From Bradyrhizobium sp. C9 (GTDB lineage: Bacteria; Pseudomonadota; Alphaproteobacteria; Rhizobiales; Xanthobacteraceae): DNA of 64,000 nucleotides. Position numbers and translations under genes: made by a program. The notes beneath the pieces are model-generated. The model searched no databases and had not been told where the DNA came from. It saw only the letters and a program-made list of their open reading frames with translations. Shown in pieces: positions 6,646-13,612 of this stretch. The DNA is taken from the NCBI RefSeq assembly GCF_002532045.1, contig NZ_NWTG01000004.1, positions 62,001 through 126,000 of the forward strand, written 5' to 3'. Numbering within the stretch: the stretch's first letter is position 1; each line of letters opens with the position of its first letter.

Positions 6646-8040
6646 TTGGAACCCTTCAATCGTGAAGGGGACGCCGACCGGACCAAGTCTAGGCCCGGGT
6701 CGGCGGGGGACCAGAGCACCGGGCGGGTGATCGTCATCGGCCCGTACCTGCGCACGCGCCGTGGCGACGGCGATGCGCAAACGGATTCCTCTGTCCGCGA
6801 CTATGAAGCGCGGATCGAGGAAGCCGCTGGCCTCGCCGGTGCGATCGACCTCACCGTGGTGGAATCCATCGTCGCGCCGGTCAGCCAGATCCGGCCCGCG
6901 ACCTATCTCGGCAAGGGCAAGGTCGAGGAGATCAACGGGCTCGTCGCCGGCGACAAGGTCGAGCTCGTGGTGATGGATTGCGCGCTGTCGCCGATCCAGC
7001 AGCGCAATCTCGAGAAAGCCTGGAGCACGAAGGTGCTCGACCGCACCGGCCTGATCCTGGAAATCTTCGGCCGCCGCGCCAAGACCAAGGAAGGCGCGCT
7101 GCAGGTCGAGCTCGCCCATCTCAATTACCAGCGCAGCCGCCTGGTGCGGTCGTGGACCCATCTCGAGCGCCAGCGCGGCGGCTTCGGCTTCATGGGCGGT
7201 CCGGGCGAAACCCAGATCGAGGCCGACCGCCGCCTGATTGGCGACCGCATCACGCGGCTGGAGAACGAGCTGAAGAAGGTGCAGGCGACGCGGCGGTTGC
7301 ATCGTGCCGGCCGCCAGCGCGTGCCGTACCGTGTCGTGGCGCTGGTCGGCTACACCAATGCCGGCAAATCGACCCTGTTCAATCGCCTGACGCGCGCCGA
7401 CGTGCAGGCCGCCGACATGCTGTTTGCGACGCTCGACCCGACCTTGCGTGCGCTCAACCTGCCGCATGGCGGCAAGGCGATGCTGTCGGACACGGTCGGC
7501 TTCATCTCCAATCTGCCGACCCAGCTGGTGGCCGCGTTCCGCGCCACGCTGGAGGAGGTGCTGGAGGCCGACATCATCCTGCATGTCCGCGACATCTCCC
7601 ACGAGGATGCGGAGGCGCAGGAGCGCGACGTCGAGGCGGTGCTGCACCAGCTCGGCATCGATCCCGACGCCGACGGCGGCCAGCGCATCATCGAGGTCTG
7701 GAACAAGATCGATCGTTTCGATCCGGAGGAGCGGGACAATCTGCGCAACATCGCCGCACGCCGGCCGCCCGAGCGGCCGTGCTTCCTGGTCTCGGCCGTC
7801 ACAGGCGAGGGGATCAAGGAGCTCCTGACCGCGATCGAGGATCGCCTCGCGGCCAAGCGCATCACGCTCAATCTTTCGATCGACGCCTCCGATGGCGCCG
7901 GCATCAGCTGGCTGCATCGCAATGCCGAGGTCCTGAGCAAGGAGCTCAATGGCGAGCGCTTCGACATGACGGTGCGGGTCGACGAGACCAAGCGCGACAT
8001 CGTCATGTCACGATTCGATGCTCTGCCGCACGGGACCTAG
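6646..8040 (+). CDS. hflX: Ribosome-associated GTPase HflX
   Basis: A 464-residue translational GTPase that splits stalled ribosomes under stress. It has the N-terminal HflX domain, the glycine-rich linker (RGGFGFMGGPGETQIE), and a G domain with G1 (GYTNAGKST), G3 (DTVGF) and G4 (NKID). The start used is TTG, 12 bases after hfq; it keeps the family N-terminal length, but a shorter GTG start near residue 28 is possible. It forms an operon with hfq. Confidence 0.96.
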   Translation: MEPFNREGDADRTKSRPGSAGDQSTGRVIVIGPYLRTRRGDGDAQTDSSVRDYEARIEEAAGLAGAIDLTVVESIVAPVSQIRPATYLGKGKVEEINGLVAGDKVELVVMDCALSPIQQRNLEKAWSTKVLDRTGLILEIFGRRAKTKEGALQVELAHLNYQRSRLVRSWTHLERQRGGFGFMGGPGETQIEADRRLIGDRITRLENELKKVQATRRLHRAGRQRVPYRVVALVGYTNAGKSTLFNRLTRADVQAADMLFATLDPTLRALNLPHGGKAMLSDTVGFISNLPTQLVAAFRATLEEVLEADIILHVRDISHEDAEAQERDVEAVLHQLGIDPDADGGQRIIEVWNKIDRFDPEERDNLRNIAARRPPERPCFLVSAVTGEGIKELLTAIEDRLAAKRITLNLSIDASDGAGISWLHRNAEVLSKELNGERFDMTVRVDETKRDIVMSRFDALPHGT

Positions 8041-8083
8041 TGTCCCGGACATCCGTGGCGGCGAGGGGATCGAAGGGGGATCG

Positions 8084-9259
8084 ATGTTCAATCGTCGAGC
8101 ATTTCTCGGCGGCGGCCTGGCGAGCGCTGCGGTCGCAGGGATTTCAACGCGTGGGGTTGCCGACAACGCCGCTTTCGTCGACGCACCCGCGCTGCGGCCG
8201 GTGCTTGCGCGTTCGGACCGCATGTTTCGGGTCACGGTATGCCTGCGTCCGTTTCGCGCCGCCGGTCCGCGCATCGAGGCGGAATGGATCGACAGCAAAT
8301 ACGTCGTGCACAATTACGGGCACGGCGGCAGCGGCTGGTCGCTATCCTGGGGCGCCGCGCAGGAGGCCGTGCCGCTCGCTTTGCAATTGAGCGCGCGTAA
8401 CATTGCCGTCCTCGGCGCCGGTGCGATCGGTCTGACCACGGCGATCACCGCCCAGCGGATGGGCGCAACCGTCACGATCTACGCCAAGGAGCGCTTCCCG
8501 CAGGTGCGCTCGGCGCGTGCGACCGGGGACTGGTCGCCGGATTCGCGGATCGCGATGGAAGCGGACGTCACGCCGGACTTTGCCGATCGCTGGGAGCGGA
8601 TGGCGCGCACGACCTTTGCCACCCATCAGAGCTATCTCGGCCTTGCCGGCAATCCGATCGAATGGACCGATCGCTATCTGCTCTCCGACGACGCTCCCGA
8701 CGCCGACGGCCGTCCGCACCGGCGCCAGCATGCCGCGGGCGACGGCCAGAAGAAATTTCTCGAATTGCGCGACCGGATCAGGTCGCTCACGCCGCGATGG
8801 GACCTGCTGGCCGCCGGATCGAATCCGTTTCCCGCGCCATACGCCTGGAAGAGCGCCTCGCTCACCTACAACGTCACCGATCTCTACCGCCAGCTTGAAG
8901 CCGAGTTTCAGCGCACCGGCGGGCGTTTCGTGCCGATCGAGTTGCACGCGCCGTCCGATCTTTCGAAGATCCGCGAAGCCGTCATCGTCAACTGCACCGG
9001 CTACGGCGCCCGTGCGTTGTTTCGCGACGAGAGCATCGTTCCGGTGCGCGGCCAGATCGCCTGGCTCATTCCCCAGCCGGATGTCAATTACGGCGTCTTC
9101 TACCGCAACCTCAGCGTCCTCGGCCGACGCGACGGGATCGTCGTCCAGCCGGTCGGCGAGAACGACTATTTCGGCTTCAACGACGACAACGAAACGCCCG
9201 ATCTCGCCGCCGCGCGCCAGGCGGTGGACGACGCCGCGAAGCTGTTCACTCGGGCCTGA
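8084..9259 (+). CDS. Exported D-amino-acid-oxidase-like flavoprotein with circularly permuted domain order
   Basis: A 391-residue FAD-dependent oxidoreductase of the DAO family. The start is the ATG preceded by gaaggggga, followed by a Tat-like signal (NRRAFLGGG plus a hydrophobic segment, residues 4-20). The order of family blocks is unusual. The DAO C-terminal blocks come first: a RPFR substrate-Arg-like segment near 55-58, then HNYGHGGSGWSLSWG at 76-90. The N-terminal FAD-binding Rossmann motif (NIAVLGAGAIGLTTA, 106-120) follows, then the middle blocks (VNCTGYGA; VPVRGQI). A normal DAO starts with the Rossmann motif and ends with GHGG. The gene starts 44 bases after the hflX stop. The substrate is unknown; oxidative deamination of an amino acid in the periplasm is an inference. 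Confidence 0.85.
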   Translation: MFNRRAFLGGGLASAAVAGISTRGVADNAAFVDAPALRPVLARSDRMFRVTVCLRPFRAAGPRIEAEWIDSKYVVHNYGHGGSGWSLSWGAAQEAVPLALQLSARNIAVLGAGAIGLTTAITAQRMGATVTIYAKERFPQVRSARATGDWSPDSRIAMEADVTPDFADRWERMARTTFATHQSYLGLAGNPIEWTDRYLLSDDAPDADGRPHRRQHAAGDGQKKFLELRDRIRSLTPRWDLLAAGSNPFPAPYAWKSASLTYNVTDLYRQLEAEFQRTGGRFVPIELHAPSDLSKIREAVIVNCTGYGARALFRDESIVPVRGQIAWLIPQPDVNYGVFYRNLSVLGRRDGIVVQPVGENDYFGFNDDNETPDLAAARQAVDDAAKLFTRA

Positions 9260-9417
9260 GCGGCCCCACGGCACGACACCTCGCCGTCGCCCGAAATGTG
9301 ACGGTGCCGTGACGCGGCCTCACTCGATCGCGCCTGCGGCGTGCCGCCGCACTTTCTGTTTGAAATCTGCGCCGCCTTGGTTCATTGCGCTGCTGGACGC
9401 AATGCCGAGGCCGATCG

Positions 9418-10788
9418 ATGCAGGACACCAGCGAAACCATCACCCACGACACGCTCGCCGGCCAGAATGGGGACCTCGCCCATGTGCGGGCGCCCGAGAT
9501 CGTCGATGCCCTCAATGCCCGGGAGCCGGCGGATGCGGCGAAGCTGCTGCAGTCGCTGCCGGCCGAGAAGGCGATCGAGGTGCTCGACTTGCCCGGGCTC
9601 GACAACACCTGCGAGATCCTGGCCGAGCTGCCGAAGGACACCGCGGTGTCGCTGCTATCAGGCGTCTCCGACGACCGTGCCGCCGACATCTTCAAGGAAC
9701 TGGTCGAGCCGCTGCGTACCGCGCTGCTGAACGGCCTCAATCCGGATACCCGTAACGTCATCTCCGGGCTGCTGGCCTATCCCGAGCGCAGCGCCGGCAG
9801 CATCATGACGACCGAATTCGTCAGCGTGCCCTCGAACTGGACCATCGCCGAGGTCCTGCATCACATCCGGATGGTCGAGCGCACCCGCGAGACCGTCTAC
9901 TCGATCTTCGTGATCGACCCGGTCAAGAAGACGCTGATCCAGGCCGTGCCGCTGCGCCGTCTGATCTCGGCCGATCCGCATGCCAATGTGCTGACCGCGG
10001 CACCGGCGCGCAAGCCGCTGATGATCTCGCCCGAGGCCGACCGCATGGAGGCGGCGCGGCTGATCTCGCGCTACGATCTGCTCGCGGTCGCCGTCGTCGA
10101 CGGCCCCGGCCATATCCTCGGCATCGTCACGGTCGACGACGTCATCGACGCCATCGTCGAGGAATCGACCGAGGACGCCCAGAAGTTCGGCGGCATGGAA
10201 GCGATCGACGAGCCTTATCTGCGGATCGGCTTCCTCGAAATGATCAAGAAGCGCGGCGGCTGGCTGTGCGCATTGTTCCTGTCGGAAATGCTGACCGCCA
10301 CCGCGATGCAGTCGTACCAGAGCGAACTCGAGAAGGCGATCGTCCTGACGCTGTTCATCCCGCTGATCATGAGCTCCGGCGGCAATTCCGGCTCGCAGGC
10401 CACCTCGCTCCTGATCCGCTCGCTGGCGCTGCACGAGGTCCGTCTGCGCGACTGGTGGCGCGTCGCCATGCGCGAACTGCCGACCGGTGTCGTGCTCGGC
10501 TCGATCCTGGGCTTGATCGGCATCGTCAGGATCACGCTCTGGCAGACGATGGGCCTGTTCGACTACGGCCCGCATTGGATGCTGGTGGCGATCACTGTCG
10601 GTGCTGCGCTGGTCGGCATCGTCACCTTCGGCTCGCTGTCCGGATCGATGCTGCCGTTCATCCTCAAGCGCATCGGCTTCGATCCGGCCAGCGCGTCCGC
10701 GCCGTTCGTCGCGACGCTGGTCGACGTCACCGGCCTCGTGATCTATTTCGGCGTTGCGGCGGTCATCCTGCACGGCACGCTGCTGTGA
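9418..10788 (+). CDS. mgtE: Magnesium transporter MgtE
   Basis: A 456-residue Mg2+ channel/transporter. It has the N-terminal MgtE helical domain with repeated LQSLP/LAELP helices, a tandem CBS pair (SAGSIMTTEFVSVP ... PLMISPEADRMEAA ... GIVTVDDVIDAI), the connecting helix (GMEAIDEPYL) and a C-terminal pore domain with about five membrane helices, including the conserved SSGGNSGSQATSL segment. The start chosen is the ATG with gagg seven bases upstream; the frame is open a little further up. It converges with the LysR gene, with only six bases between the stops. Confidence 0.95.
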   Translation: MQDTSETITHDTLAGQNGDLAHVRAPEIVDALNAREPADAAKLLQSLPAEKAIEVLDLPGLDNTCEILAELPKDTAVSLLSGVSDDRAADIFKELVEPLRTALLNGLNPDTRNVISGLLAYPERSAGSIMTTEFVSVPSNWTIAEVLHHIRMVERTRETVYSIFVIDPVKKTLIQAVPLRRLISADPHANVLTAAPARKPLMISPEADRMEAARLISRYDLLAVAVVDGPGHILGIVTVDDVIDAIVEESTEDAQKFGGMEAIDEPYLRIGFLEMIKKRGGWLCALFLSEMLTATAMQSYQSELEKAIVLTLFIPLIMSSGGNSGSQATSLLIRSLALHEVRLRDWWRVAMRELPTGVVLGSILGLIGIVRITLWQTMGLFDYGPHWMLVAITVGAALVGIVTFGSLSGSMLPFILKRIGFDPASASAPFVATLVDVTGLVIYFGVAAVILHGTLL

Positions 10789-10794
10789 GCCGCG

Positions 10795-11682
10795 TCATGC
10801 CGCAAACAGATGGCTTGCGGCAAAATCGATGAAGGCGCGCAATCGCGTCGAGCCGTATCTGCCGGAGGGCCACAGCATCCAGAACGCGGCTTCGATCGTC
10901 TCTTGCGGCAGCACGATCTGCAACTGACCGGTTTCGAGCGCGTCGCGCATCAGGAAATCGGGCGCCCAGGCCAGTCCCAGGCCTGCAACCGCTGCCGCAC
11001 GGACCGCCTCGATGTTCGAGCAGATCACGTGGGGTGTTGCTTCCTCGATCGCGGCCTGCGCGCCGCTAGCCAGTTGCCACGCCTGCAGCACGTCGGTGTC
11101 GGGATGGCGGAAGCGGATCAGGCGATGCCCTGACAGCGCCGCGTGATCGGCGGGTTCGCCGCATTCGGCGAGGTAAGACGGCGCGGCGTAGACCGAGAGA
11201 CGGAATGGCGGCAGCCTGCGCGACATCAGGCCGGAATCGGGCAGGGCGCCGCTGCGGATCGCAAGATCAAAGCCCTCCGTCACCAGATCCCGGATGCGGT
11301 CGTCGAAATCCAGATCGAGCCGGATCTTCGGATGCGTTTGCGCGAAGGCCGCCAGATGCGGCGCGAGGAAGCGATAGCCGGCGGCGGGCAGGCTGATGCG
11401 CAGCAGGCCTTGCGGTTCGCTCGCCGACGCCGACAGCAGCGCGGTGGTCTCGCGCCAATCGTCCTGCAGCCGTCGTGCGCGGCCGAGCAGCAATTCGCCT
11501 TCGGGCGTCAGGCTGACCCGCCGCGTCGTTCGCGTGAACAGGCGCACGCCGAGCTGCGCTTCCAGCGTGGCGATCGCCTTTCCGGTGGCTGACGGCGACA
11601 GGCCGAGCCTTCTCGCTGCAGCCGCAAAGCTCAGCGTTTCGGCGACGGTGACGAAGGTGACGAGTGACGGCGGGTCTTCCAT
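10795..11682 (-). CDS. LysR-family transcriptional regulator
   Basis: A 295-residue LysR-type regulator. The N-terminal winged helix-turn-helix is clear (LSFAAAARRLGLSPSATGKAIATLEAQLGVRLFTR; residues about 15-50), followed by a LysR substrate-binding domain. It resembles the group that regulates adjacent, divergently transcribed oxidoreductase or metabolic genes. Here the divergent neighbour is the beta-propeller gene at 11792, 109 bases away, which is the likely target. The effector is unknown. Confidence 0.93.
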   Translation of the reverse strand: MEDPPSLVTFVTVAETLSFAAAARRLGLSPSATGKAIATLEAQLGVRLFTRTTRRVSLTPEGELLLGRARRLQDDWRETTALLSASASEPQGLLRISLPAAGYRFLAPHLAAFAQTHPKIRLDLDFDDRIRDLVTEGFDLAIRSGALPDSGLMSRRLPPFRLSVYAAPSYLAECGEPADHAALSGHRLIRFRHPDTDVLQAWQLASGAQAAIEEATPHVICSNIEAVRAAAVAGLGLAWAPDFLMRDALETGQLQIVLPQETIEAAFWMLWPSGRYGSTRLRAFIDFAASHLFAA

Positions 11683-11705
11683 GGCGGCAGATTAGCGAAT
11701 TCCGG

Positions 11706-11720
11706 TCGCGGATGTCGCGA
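11706..11720. promoter_or_regulatory. Possible LysR operator (tcgcg-N5-cgcga)
   Basis: A short inverted repeat, tcgcg gatgt cgcga, lies in the 109-base gap between the divergent LysR gene and the propeller gene. LysR proteins usually bind T-N11-A palindromes in such gaps. This one has a T-N13-A spacing and five-base arms, so support is weak. Confidence 0.25.
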
Positions 11721-11791
11721 GTTTCCGCCCGATGATCGGCGGCCCGCGACTTTCTATCCTCGGTTCAGTCGAACTCACCGAGGCGCGAACG

Positions 11792-12781
11792 ATGGCACGA
11801 GACATCCACACGGATCATGCAAGCTACCAATTGAGCGGATTTGTCGACGGCGTCTGGCATCCGGAGGACCTGGTCGAACTGCCGGGAACGTCGTGGGTCA
11901 TCGTCAGTTGCATGCGATCGGCAGACCATGCCGGCGGCCTGTTCAAGGTCGATACGGCGCAGCCGTCACACGCGACGGAGCTGCGCTGGGCGCCTGCCGC
12001 GCAGCAGGCGCGGCTCGGACCTCAAATCTTCGACCCGCACGGAATTGCCGCGCGGCGTCTCGCCGATGAGACGTTCGAACTGCTGGTGGTCGATCATGGC
12101 GGCGGCGAAGCCATCGACCGCCTGGTGATCGAGCTCGGCGAGGAGGGGCCCTTCGTTGCAACGGGCGAGCGCCTTGTGCAGCCGCCGCGGACGTCGGCGA
12201 ACGCGGTGGCGTATCTGCCGGATGGCGGCTTCGTCATGACCAGCATGTTCGATCCGACGGACCGCGAGTTCGTGTCGCGGTTTGCGCGCGCCGAGCCGAC
12301 CGGGCAGGTATGGCGTTGGTCACCGGCGAAGGGCTGGAGCCGGTTCGGCGATCGGCCGATGTCCGGCGCCAACGGCATCGCGGTGTCGCGCGATGGTTTC
12401 GTCATCGCCTGCGAATGGGCCGCGCGCCGCGTCTGGCGGCTCGACCGCGACGGCCGAGCGGTCGCAAGCGTCGAGACGGATTTCCTGCCCGACAATTTGC
12501 GCTGGACTGCAGACGGGCGGCTGCTGCTCGCGGGACAATCCACGCGGCCGGAGGTTCTGTTCGGTTGCGAAGCGCGCGGCGATCGCTGCCCGCTGGCCTT
12601 CAAGGTCGTGCGGCTCGATCCGACGAGCCTCGCGATCGAATCCCTGATCGCGATCGACGAGGCTGGCGCGAAGGCCGAGGGCTTCGGCGGCGCGACGGGG
12701 GCGATGCAGGTTGGCGAGCAGATCTGGGTCGGCAGCTTCACCGGTCAGCGGATCGGAATATTCAGCCCCTCGTCAGCGTAA
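11792..12781 (+). CDS. SMP-30/gluconolactonase-like beta-propeller protein
   Basis: A 329-residue protein without an obvious signal peptide. Repeated strand motifs (LPDGGFVMTS, SRDGFVIACE, VWRLDRDG, TADGRLLLAG) and the DNLRW segment point to a six-bladed SMP-30/strictosidine-synthase-like propeller, a fold used by lactonases and related metal-dependent hydrolases. The start chosen is the ATG of MARDIHTD; an upstream in-frame ATG at 11732 lies within the LysR promoter gap. Its end overlaps the 3' end of mazG by nine bases on the other strand. The substrate is unknown. Confidence 0.75.
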   Translation: MARDIHTDHASYQLSGFVDGVWHPEDLVELPGTSWVIVSCMRSADHAGGLFKVDTAQPSHATELRWAPAAQQARLGPQIFDPHGIAARRLADETFELLVVDHGGGEAIDRLVIELGEEGPFVATGERLVQPPRTSANAVAYLPDGGFVMTSMFDPTDREFVSRFARAEPTGQVWRWSPAKGWSRFGDRPMSGANGIAVSRDGFVIACEWAARRVWRLDRDGRAVASVETDFLPDNLRWTADGRLLLAGQSTRPEVLFGCEARGDRCPLAFKVVRLDPTSLAIESLIAIDEAGAKAEGFGGATGAMQVGEQIWVGSFTGQRIGIFSPSSA

Positions 12782-13612
12782 GGGCGCGCCGACCGGCGTC
12801 GCCGCAGATTTGGCCTCGTTCCACAGCGCGTCCATCTCATCGAGCGTTGCGCCGTCGAGCGAGCGGCCCTTCGCGGCCAGCGCCTGCTCGATATAGGCAA
12901 ACCGCCGCTCGAACTTGGTGTTGGTCGCGCGCAGCGCGGTTTCCGGATCGGCGTCGACATGGCGGGCGAGGTTGACCAGTGCGAACATCAGGTCGCCGGT
13001 CTCTTCCGCAATCTCCGCTTTGTCGTTGCGGTCGAGCGCGGCCTCGATCTCGTCGGCCTCCTCGCGGATCTTGGCGAGCACGGCGCGCGGGTCGTTCCAG
13101 TCGAAGCCGACCGTGGATGCCTTGCGCTGCAACTCCATCGCCCGGGTCAGGGCAGGGAGGCCGGCCTTCACGCTGGCCAGCAGGGATTTGTGTGCGGTCT
13201 CCTCCGGCGGGCGCCGCGCGGCGCGCTCGGCCTTCTCCTCGGCCTTGATCCGCTCCCAGGCGCTCTTGACGCCCGCGGGCTGGATGTTGCCGTCCTTGTC
13301 GGCAAAGACATGCGGATGACGGCGGATCATCTTCTTCGTGATCGCCTCGACCACGTCGCCGAACGCAAAGGCGTTCTGCTCCTCGGCCATCCTTGCGTGA
13401 TAGACCACCTGCAGCAGGAGGTCGCCGAGCTCCTCGCGCAAATCCTCGAAATCGCCGCGGGCGATCGCATCCGCGACCTCATAGGCCTCTTCGATCGTGT
13501 AAGGCACGATGGTCTCGAAATTCTGCACGAGGTCCCACGGGCAGCCGGTCACCGGCGTGCGCAGCGCGGCCATGATCTCGATCAGGCGGGAAATGTCGCG
13601 GGAAGGGGTCAT
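12773..13612 (-). CDS. mazG: Nucleoside triphosphate pyrophosphohydrolase MazG
   Basis: A 279-residue all-alpha NTP pyrophosphatase that cleans the nucleotide pool. It shows two MazG domains: the N-terminal one with [26 protein letters not shown] and [19 protein letters not shown], the C-terminal one with [10 protein letters not shown] and [16 protein letters not shown]. Both have the ExxE/ExxD metal-binding pattern. In many alphaproteobacteria mazG lies directly after hflX; here four genes separate them. It is divergent from queC. Confidence 0.95.

Follow-up and report, generated by a model that had tools for sequence, protein, structure and literature searches.

The D-amino acid oxidase (DAO) family is a textbook group of flavoenzymes with medical and industrial uses. 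In human DAAO, the FAD motif comes first in the chain and is followed by the middle blocks, a GFRP motif and, last, HNYGHGG. In DAAO, Arg283 binds the substrate carboxylate, and Tyr228 lies at that same carboxylate. The L-amino acid deaminase of Proteus (5hxw, 5fjm) is located outside the cytoplasm and, in the case of 5hxw, membrane-anchored at its N terminus. In the available portions of the open-licence literature we found no description of a natural circular permutant in the DAO family, in agreement with the first-pass annotation of this locus, which knew of none, and a term search for 'permut' returned nothing in the available text of a search for new DAAOs (PMC9844085) or of a distribution review (PMC4699246).

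The window, the 64,000-nucleotide stretch of Bradyrhizobium sp. C9 DNA analysed here, encodes a protein that carries the motifs of this family in a rotated order. Because Pfam still gives a DAO match for such proteins, their permutation is masked by the generic annotation 'FAD-dependent oxidoreductase'.

Block order and evidence for permutation

The gene is an uninterrupted 391-aa open reading frame at 8084-9259 of the + strand, with an ATG at 8084 and a stop codon that ends at 9259. An alternative upstream start at 8018 would give a protein of 413 aa; the start at 8084 was preferred because GAAGGGGG sits just 5' of it and a Tat-like N terminus lies downstream. From its N terminus, the protein carries MFNRRAFLGGGLASAAVAG (a twin-arginine-type signal), CLRPFR (53-58), HNYGHGGSGWSLSWG (76-90), VLGAGAIG (109-116), VNCTGYGA (302-309) and VPVRGQI (319-325), which places the GHGG block ahead of the FAD motif rather than in the canonical order of N-terminal FAD motif and C-terminal GHGG. 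The first-pass annotation had described these blocks, their order and their coordinates in one frame, and the open reading frame and motif positions agree with it. Comparison with a 97% identical relative in genome G004 revealed 62 synonymous and 12 non-synonymous differences (dN/dS 0.056), which indicates that the window gene is under purifying selection. The features of the protein are collected in Table 1.

Table 1. Features of the window gene and its predicted protein (window positions; human residues refer to DAAO).
Feature	Position	Strand	Basis
CDS, circularly permuted DAO-fold protein, 391 aa	8084..9259	+	reading frame; dN/dS 0.056 relative to the G004 copy
Predicted Tat signal peptide MFNRRAFLGGGLASAAVAGISTRGVAD, residues 1-27, cleavage end estimated	8084..8164	+	sequence; family N-terminal consensus MxxRRxxLxxxG...LxxC; PF10518 E 0.0039, under cut-off
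Permuted block, residues 47-102 = human 275-333 (canonical C terminus)	8222..8389	+	phmmer, profile matches, alignment
Arg55, equivalent of DAAO Arg283, kept in 111/111	8246..8248	+	alignment
VVHNYGHGGSGWSLSWGAA, DAO signature block, residues 74-92	8303..8359	+	sequence, signature pattern
Junction, residues 103-106, former C-terminal helix into former N-terminal strand	8390..8401	+	model; GHGG to GxGxxG spacing exactly 35 aa in 98/111 members
VLGAGAIG, FAD Rossmann motif, residues 109-116 = human 5-12	8408..8431	+	sequence, alignment
VNCTGYGA, middle DAO block, residues 302-309	8987..9010	+	sequence
VPVRGQI, middle DAO block, residues 319-325	9038..9058	+	sequence
New C-terminal helix, residues 374-390, end near human residue 269	9203..9253	+	model, structure comparison, alignment

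The Pfam DAO profile (PF01266) matched the window protein in two stretches with 76.6 bits (cut-off 27.9), the better of which aligned residues 107-388 to profile positions 2-297, a match well above what chance would give. The same profile matched all 80 proteins of a set (A3) made up of the window protein and 79 permuted relatives (E 0.001). The window protein matches the DAO signature pattern, and so do 43 of the 111 members of the family described below. The best NCBIfam match was to the glycine oxidase ThiO (TIGR02352, residues 107-326), but with 27 bits against a cut-off of 250.8 the window protein is not a member of that family.

When the window protein was compared with solved structures by phmmer, the D-amino acid oxidase 7ct4 was found at 9.4e-18 in three stretches that follow one another in permuted order (query 95-158, 297-332 and 48-99, corresponding to chain 14-77, 209-246 and 321-372), and human DASPO and DAAO were found in permuted order as well. 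A profile built from A3 was run against all solved chains and gave the same picture. In human DASPO (6rkf), profile positions 80-340 aligned to chain 8-267 and positions 28-81 to chain 280-336, while in 7ct4 positions 80-343 aligned to chain 19-304 and positions 27-82 to chain 320-375, such that the two swapped stretches tile the DAAO and DASPO chains with almost no overlap. None of the 31 distinct chains among the matches listed aligned to the full profile in a single stretch, and the search thus yielded no permuted member with a solved structure.

We also scanned rotations of the window protein against a profile of eight canonical DAOs. The scan gave a broad peak for cuts at 100-107; the cut at residue 103 scored 134.1 bits over profile positions 6-333, versus 74.3 bits over positions 6-198 only for the unrotated protein, and this one rotation makes the window protein collinear with canonical DAOs. 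Rotation raised the score in 102 of the 111 family members (median 115 to 182 bits, median gain 65 bits); in the other nine the score was not higher, with a largest drop of 1.1 bits. As a control, the eight canonical proteins were scored one at a time against a profile built without the protein in question. Every one of them had its best score at its native ends or no more than about 20 residues from them, and cutting at the permuted-type site, immediately ahead of the GLRP-type motif, cost each of them 59-93 bits. Rotated single-sequence phmmer searches of the PDB gave collinear stretches at near-constant scores (67.5 to 63.6 bits for 7ct4; 53.0 to 55.8 bits for 6rkf). In the alignment, window residues 47, 102, 107 and 385 are equivalent to human residues 275, 333, 3 and 264, respectively. 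These equivalences imply that the old ends were fused with the removal of little beyond the C-terminal tail, and that the new ends lie within one connecting stretch that leads from a helix to a strand.

An AlphaFold2 model of the window protein, made with A3, had a mean pLDDT of 86.8 and a pTM of 0.85. Residues 41-140 reached 88-98 per ten-residue block, with means of 91-98 across 81-120, and values below 50 were found at residues 1-19 and 24-32. The first-pass annotation had proposed that joining the two DAO ends is structurally sensible, and in the model the old C-terminal helix (84-102) indeed runs directly into the old N-terminal strand (106-110). A model of the Dokdonella relative L091, whose pocket is intact, was made from 48 sequences and was more confident (pLDDT 94.8, pTM 0.92). 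Foldseek ranked human DAAO (8hy5, E 6.1e-12) first for the window model. VIA-align superposed window residues 105-390, about 250 of them at 2.5-2.6 A, on the DAAO range 1-269 with Z about 20, and L091 residues 85-349 fell on the same range (Z about 24, 1.7-2.0 A). Glycine and sarcosine oxidases ranked below DAAO (Z about 15-16 and 17-18). As both programs preserve chain order, these Z values cover the core without the moved block 47-102. For that block, the profile matches and the whole-model confidence (pTM 0.85 and 0.92) agree with a predicted position in the place of DAAO 275-333. From the A3 tiling, the rotation scan with its canonical controls, the two confident models and the family-wide lack of a second GHGG block, we consider the circular permutation suggested by the first-pass annotation to be nearly certain. 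The first-pass annotation's condition that the early GHGG segment should form the FAD site was addressed indirectly.

Distribution, phylogeny and genomic context

Of 60 genomes, including that of the window, 18 had matches to the window protein at E 0.001, most of them confined to the common Rossmann part. Six of the 60 encode a permuted DAO: the window's own (G000; the window gene and a second copy), G004 (both), G039, G050, G052 and G007. The second copy of the window's genome (L002; G000:C22, about 104.0-105.0 kb) is a 362-aa, cytosolic-looking permuted form that has no signal peptide and retains Tyr228 and Gly239-Gly240. With a permuted profile at 1e-20, the family was found in 12 of 240 genomes when the class was searched and in 20 of 398 for the phylum, the window's own included in both. 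In named genomes sampled one per species, at least 592 stretches contain the GHGG pattern and at least 584 encode a relative. We took the best 80 of these at least 584 relatives; since they were chosen by a permuted query, the finding that all are permuted is partly due to selection, and canonical forms may be among the remainder. The record labels of these 80 and of other members span nine phyla (Pseudomonadota, Acidobacteriota, Gemmatimonadota, Verrucomicrobiota, Bacteroidota, Chloroflexota, Candidatus Zixiibacteriota, Vulcanimicrobiota, titled Eremiobacterota, and Dadabacteria), and as most of the genomes are metagenome-assembled, individual phylum placements may be wrong.

Of 138 loci gathered up to this point, 124 have a long open reading frame with GHGG, and all 124, many of which overlap, are permuted; 14 have no such frame. 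Removal of L072 (contig end), L132 and L136 (internal stop) and two duplicates from 116 candidate rows left 111 non-redundant members, which include the window protein and its 97% twin and are all permuted. The window protein is thus one of a large, widespread permuted family and not a single odd protein.

Since the members were gathered with permuted queries, they carry no information on the frequency of canonical forms. A human DAAO query (identical in sequence to 2du8) found nothing in 299 Pseudomonadota genomes, but this is a weak query and the set has no positive control. A Nocardia DAO query matched 6 of 249 Pseudomonadota genomes and a canonical profile, A4, matched 13 of 299; with the best few candidates per genome scored, every match listed lies in a permuted locus. 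Canonical DAOs are present on Burkholderia and Vibrio plasmids, so the A4 result is a hint on relative frequency and not a measure of it.

A careful tree was built from rotated sequences of 58 hand-chosen rows, 51 of the 111 permuted and 7 of the 8 canonical, without L038 and L145. Canonical and permuted forms were split with support of 100/99, and the window subfamily, represented by 10 of its 17 rows, was recovered at 100/100. The first-branching permuted forms all belong to the window's genus: L002 and L121, which have no signal, and their Tat-bearing sisters L008 and L120. A quick tree of all 119 rows showed the same split at a support of 77, with L038 on a very long branch. With the root placed by assumption, the trees fit a single origin of the permutation. 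L038 itself (G193:C93), from a genome of 1.9 Mb in the same class, is a permuted DAO whose sequence has diverged strongly and whose signal is Sec-like; it may mark a further deep branch.

A gap of 43 bases separates hflX from the window gene, and the local gene order is ntrX-hfq-hflX-gene-mgtE (names from translations). In G003 (locus L193), the nearest relative without the gene (HflX 94%), sequence aligned to window position 8021 is separated from that aligned to 9291 by 26 bases, which makes this an empty site. Window 8022-9290 is thus an accessory gene insertion. In seven members of the genus besides G003 and G004, sequence matching window 12.8-14 kb begins within about 0.06-1.4 kb of the end of hflX; window 8040-12788 looks variable and holds, with names from translations, the permuted DAO, an mgtE-like gene, a LysR-like regulator (- strand) and an SMP-30-like gene.

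The neighbourhoods of 101 loci were surveyed, with crude gene calling that missed the target in 23 of them, and 116 translations from 15 loci with window-subfamily members were read by eye. Close relatives have common neighbours (L154/L155, L163/L164), and L146, L154, L155, L061 and L078 share a nearby cluster of large hydrolase-like proteins. No other recurring neighbour was seen at the 101 loci or, by eye, at the 15 subfamily loci, so no substrate was inferred from context. On a plasmid of Kozakia baliensis, a small cytochrome c gene (L146:4107-4541) lies directly 3' of the permuted DAO, which also adjoins several hydrolases and a TonB receptor and is annotated only as 'FAD-dependent oxidoreductase'. 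With the target forced in all 101 loci, frames containing CXXCH were found within 1.5 kb at nine; these mostly encode other proteins by reading, and the only typical small cytochrome c is that of Kozakia. A cytochrome c partner is not claimed.

Predicted export and the active site

The window protein begins with a twin-arginine motif (NRRAFL) followed by a hydrophobic stretch (GGGLASAAVAG), and an RR pair with a hydrophobic stretch was found at the N terminus of 107 of the 111 members. A near-identical Tat rule likewise returned 107/111, versus a mean of 27.8 and a maximum of 39 after shuffling, and a stricter rule returned 103/111 (shuffled mean 6.2, maximum 13). The four members outside the Tat rule are L002 and L121, which have no signal, L034, which lies at a contig start, and L038, whose signal is Sec-like by reading. 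Of the 107 Tat-positive members, 74 also carry a lipobox-like cysteine; the same test found no lipobox in the window protein. At E 0.01, the short Tat profiles PF10518 and TIGR01409 matched 20/111 and 16/111 members, respectively, and the window protein scored 17.5 bits with PF10518 (cut-off 22.7). The eight canonical comparators have 6-30 residues before GxGxxG, and one of them (L145) has an RR pair, within 12 residues. The Tat signal proposed in the first-pass annotation stands for the family, and for the window protein the profile favours it only weakly. Judged from sequence, the family is very probably exported by a Tat-type route.

To compare active sites, the 111 permuted members were aligned with the 8 canonical proteins. 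Arg283, Pro284, His307, Gly312 and Gly313 (human DAAO numbering) are kept in all 111 permuted members, and the Arg283 equivalent, Arg55 in the window protein, is also present in 8/8 canonical rows. We defined a window subfamily of 17 rows by G[SAG]GWSL and refer to the other 94 as ordinary permuted members. At the Tyr228 position, the ordinary members mostly have Tyr (67) or His (17) and the canonical rows Tyr (5) or Phe (3), whereas the residue is absent from all 17 subfamily members (Ser in 7, including the window protein, Leu in 4, Gly in 2, Asn in 2, and others). Gly239, kept in 94/94 others, is replaced by Gln in 17/17, and the position of DAAO Tyr55 is mostly Asp (15/17). Leu316 is replaced by Trp in 17/17, which follows from the definition of the group. 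All 17 subfamily members retain the GHGG block, the Rossmann glycines and the equivalent of Arg283.

Most of the permuted family therefore looks competent for amino acid oxidation, and it is likely that the family oxidises an amino-acid-like substrate. The window branch looks re-tooled, with the carboxylate-binding arginine still present. Since its pocket is remodelled, the substrate of the subfamily is probably something other than a plain D-amino acid. D-amino acid oxidation by the window protein is plausible, and an amino-acid-like substrate is less likely for it than for the family at large. As the Tyr228 equivalent is lost in the window protein, the name 'D-amino acid oxidase' is sound as a fold assignment and does not extend to a demonstrated activity.

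Interpretation and comparison with known systems

We put the probability at about 0.85 that the window protein is a true circular permutant of the DAO fold, of single origin, that is exported, binds a carboxylate and carries out an amino-acid-like oxidation. Sequence and prediction show the old C-terminal helix fused straight to the old first Rossmann strand and place the opening of the chain between a helix and the GLRP strand, near human DAAO residues 265-275; the same block order appears in the sequence of every collected member. A single tandem duplication, in-frame fusion and loss of the outer parts may have produced this arrangement. The N terminus so created would lie away from the FAD motif and bear the Tat signal that takes a folded, FAD-loaded enzyme to the periplasm, and in about two thirds of members possibly a lipid-anchor-like cysteine as well. 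Arg55 would hold the substrate carboxylate over the flavin, an amino-acid-like substrate would be oxidised by hydride transfer to FAD, and the FAD would be re-oxidised by oxygen, with release of H2O2, or by a respiratory acceptor.

Duplication and fusion are the usual route to circular permutation, so intermediates could exist, and the locus might instead reflect a partial duplication, in which a stray DAO C-terminal block stands ahead of an ordinary DAO that keeps, or has recently lost, its own. The first-pass annotation had named a second, C-terminal GHGG block in relatives as the sign of such an event. No second block was found in any of the 111 members, whose chains end 285-348 residues (median 300) past the start of the first GHGG block, and a supported branch parts permuted from canonical forms. 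Duplication in place of permutation is ruled out for these members, and we regard a partial duplication as very improbable. Still less probable, to the point of being negligible, is a sequencing or assembly artefact or a decaying gene. Two relatives, L132 and L136, do have a stop codon within the matched stretch, but no such signs were seen for the window gene, and the identical block order across many genomes and the dN/dS of 0.056, which counts against a pseudogene or assembly artefact, rule this explanation out.

The alternatives to permuted amino-acid-like oxidation that carry more weight concern the reaction. The exported protein could be a membrane-side dehydrogenase that passes its electrons to cytochrome c or quinone and not to oxygen. 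The cytochrome c gene downstream of the Kozakia relative keeps such a role possible and the lipobox-like cysteines are in its favour, but with CXXCH frames near only nine loci, and one typical small cytochrome c among them, we think it a real possibility that falls well short of being favoured. It is unlikely, though not fanciful, that the window subfamily abandoned amine oxidation altogether and uses FAD in another redox reaction or a structural role: the loss of Tyr228 and the change of Gly239 to Gln set apart a clean clade, whereas the conserved arginine, GHGG block and Rossmann glycines, and the strong purifying selection on the window gene, speak against it. More tentatively, and with slightly more doubt than confidence, we propose that one ancient permutation founded a widespread, mostly Tat-exported and often lipid-anchored flavoenzyme branch across some nine phyla, maybe commoner than canonical forms in Pseudomonadota, within which the window subfamily rebuilt its active site, losing Tyr228 and replacing Gly239 with Gln and Leu316 with Trp, and gained an activity new for the fold.

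With hundreds of relatives, the permuted branch is a natural experiment on how FAD enzymes tolerate relocated termini. It offers enzymes whose termini are remote from the FAD motif and usable for tethering or fusions, and it points to seemingly unstudied exported bacterial amino-acid oxidases or dehydrogenases. One attractive idea is that, by detaching the N terminus from the first Rossmann strand, the permutation let a signal or lipid anchor be added. The members without a signal, L002 and L121, imply that permutation does not require export, and the anchoring of 5hxw despite its canonical order counts against permutation being necessary.

Among known systems, DAAO and DASPO (2du8, 6rkf, 7ct4; PF01266) are homologous to the window protein over nearly the whole mature chain, share the fold of residues 105-390 and have Arg283, GHGG and GxGxxG in common with it; the window protein differs in its rotated blocks, its termini near human 265-275, its predicted export signal and the change of Tyr228 to Ser. 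The Proteus deaminase (5hxw, 5fjm) and the 'conserved exported protein' 3dme, placed outside the cytoplasm by its entry title, have the same core fold (Z about 16) but, unlike the window protein, canonical block order in the alignment ranges, and by analogy suggest that a DAO/GR2 fold can be exported without permutation.
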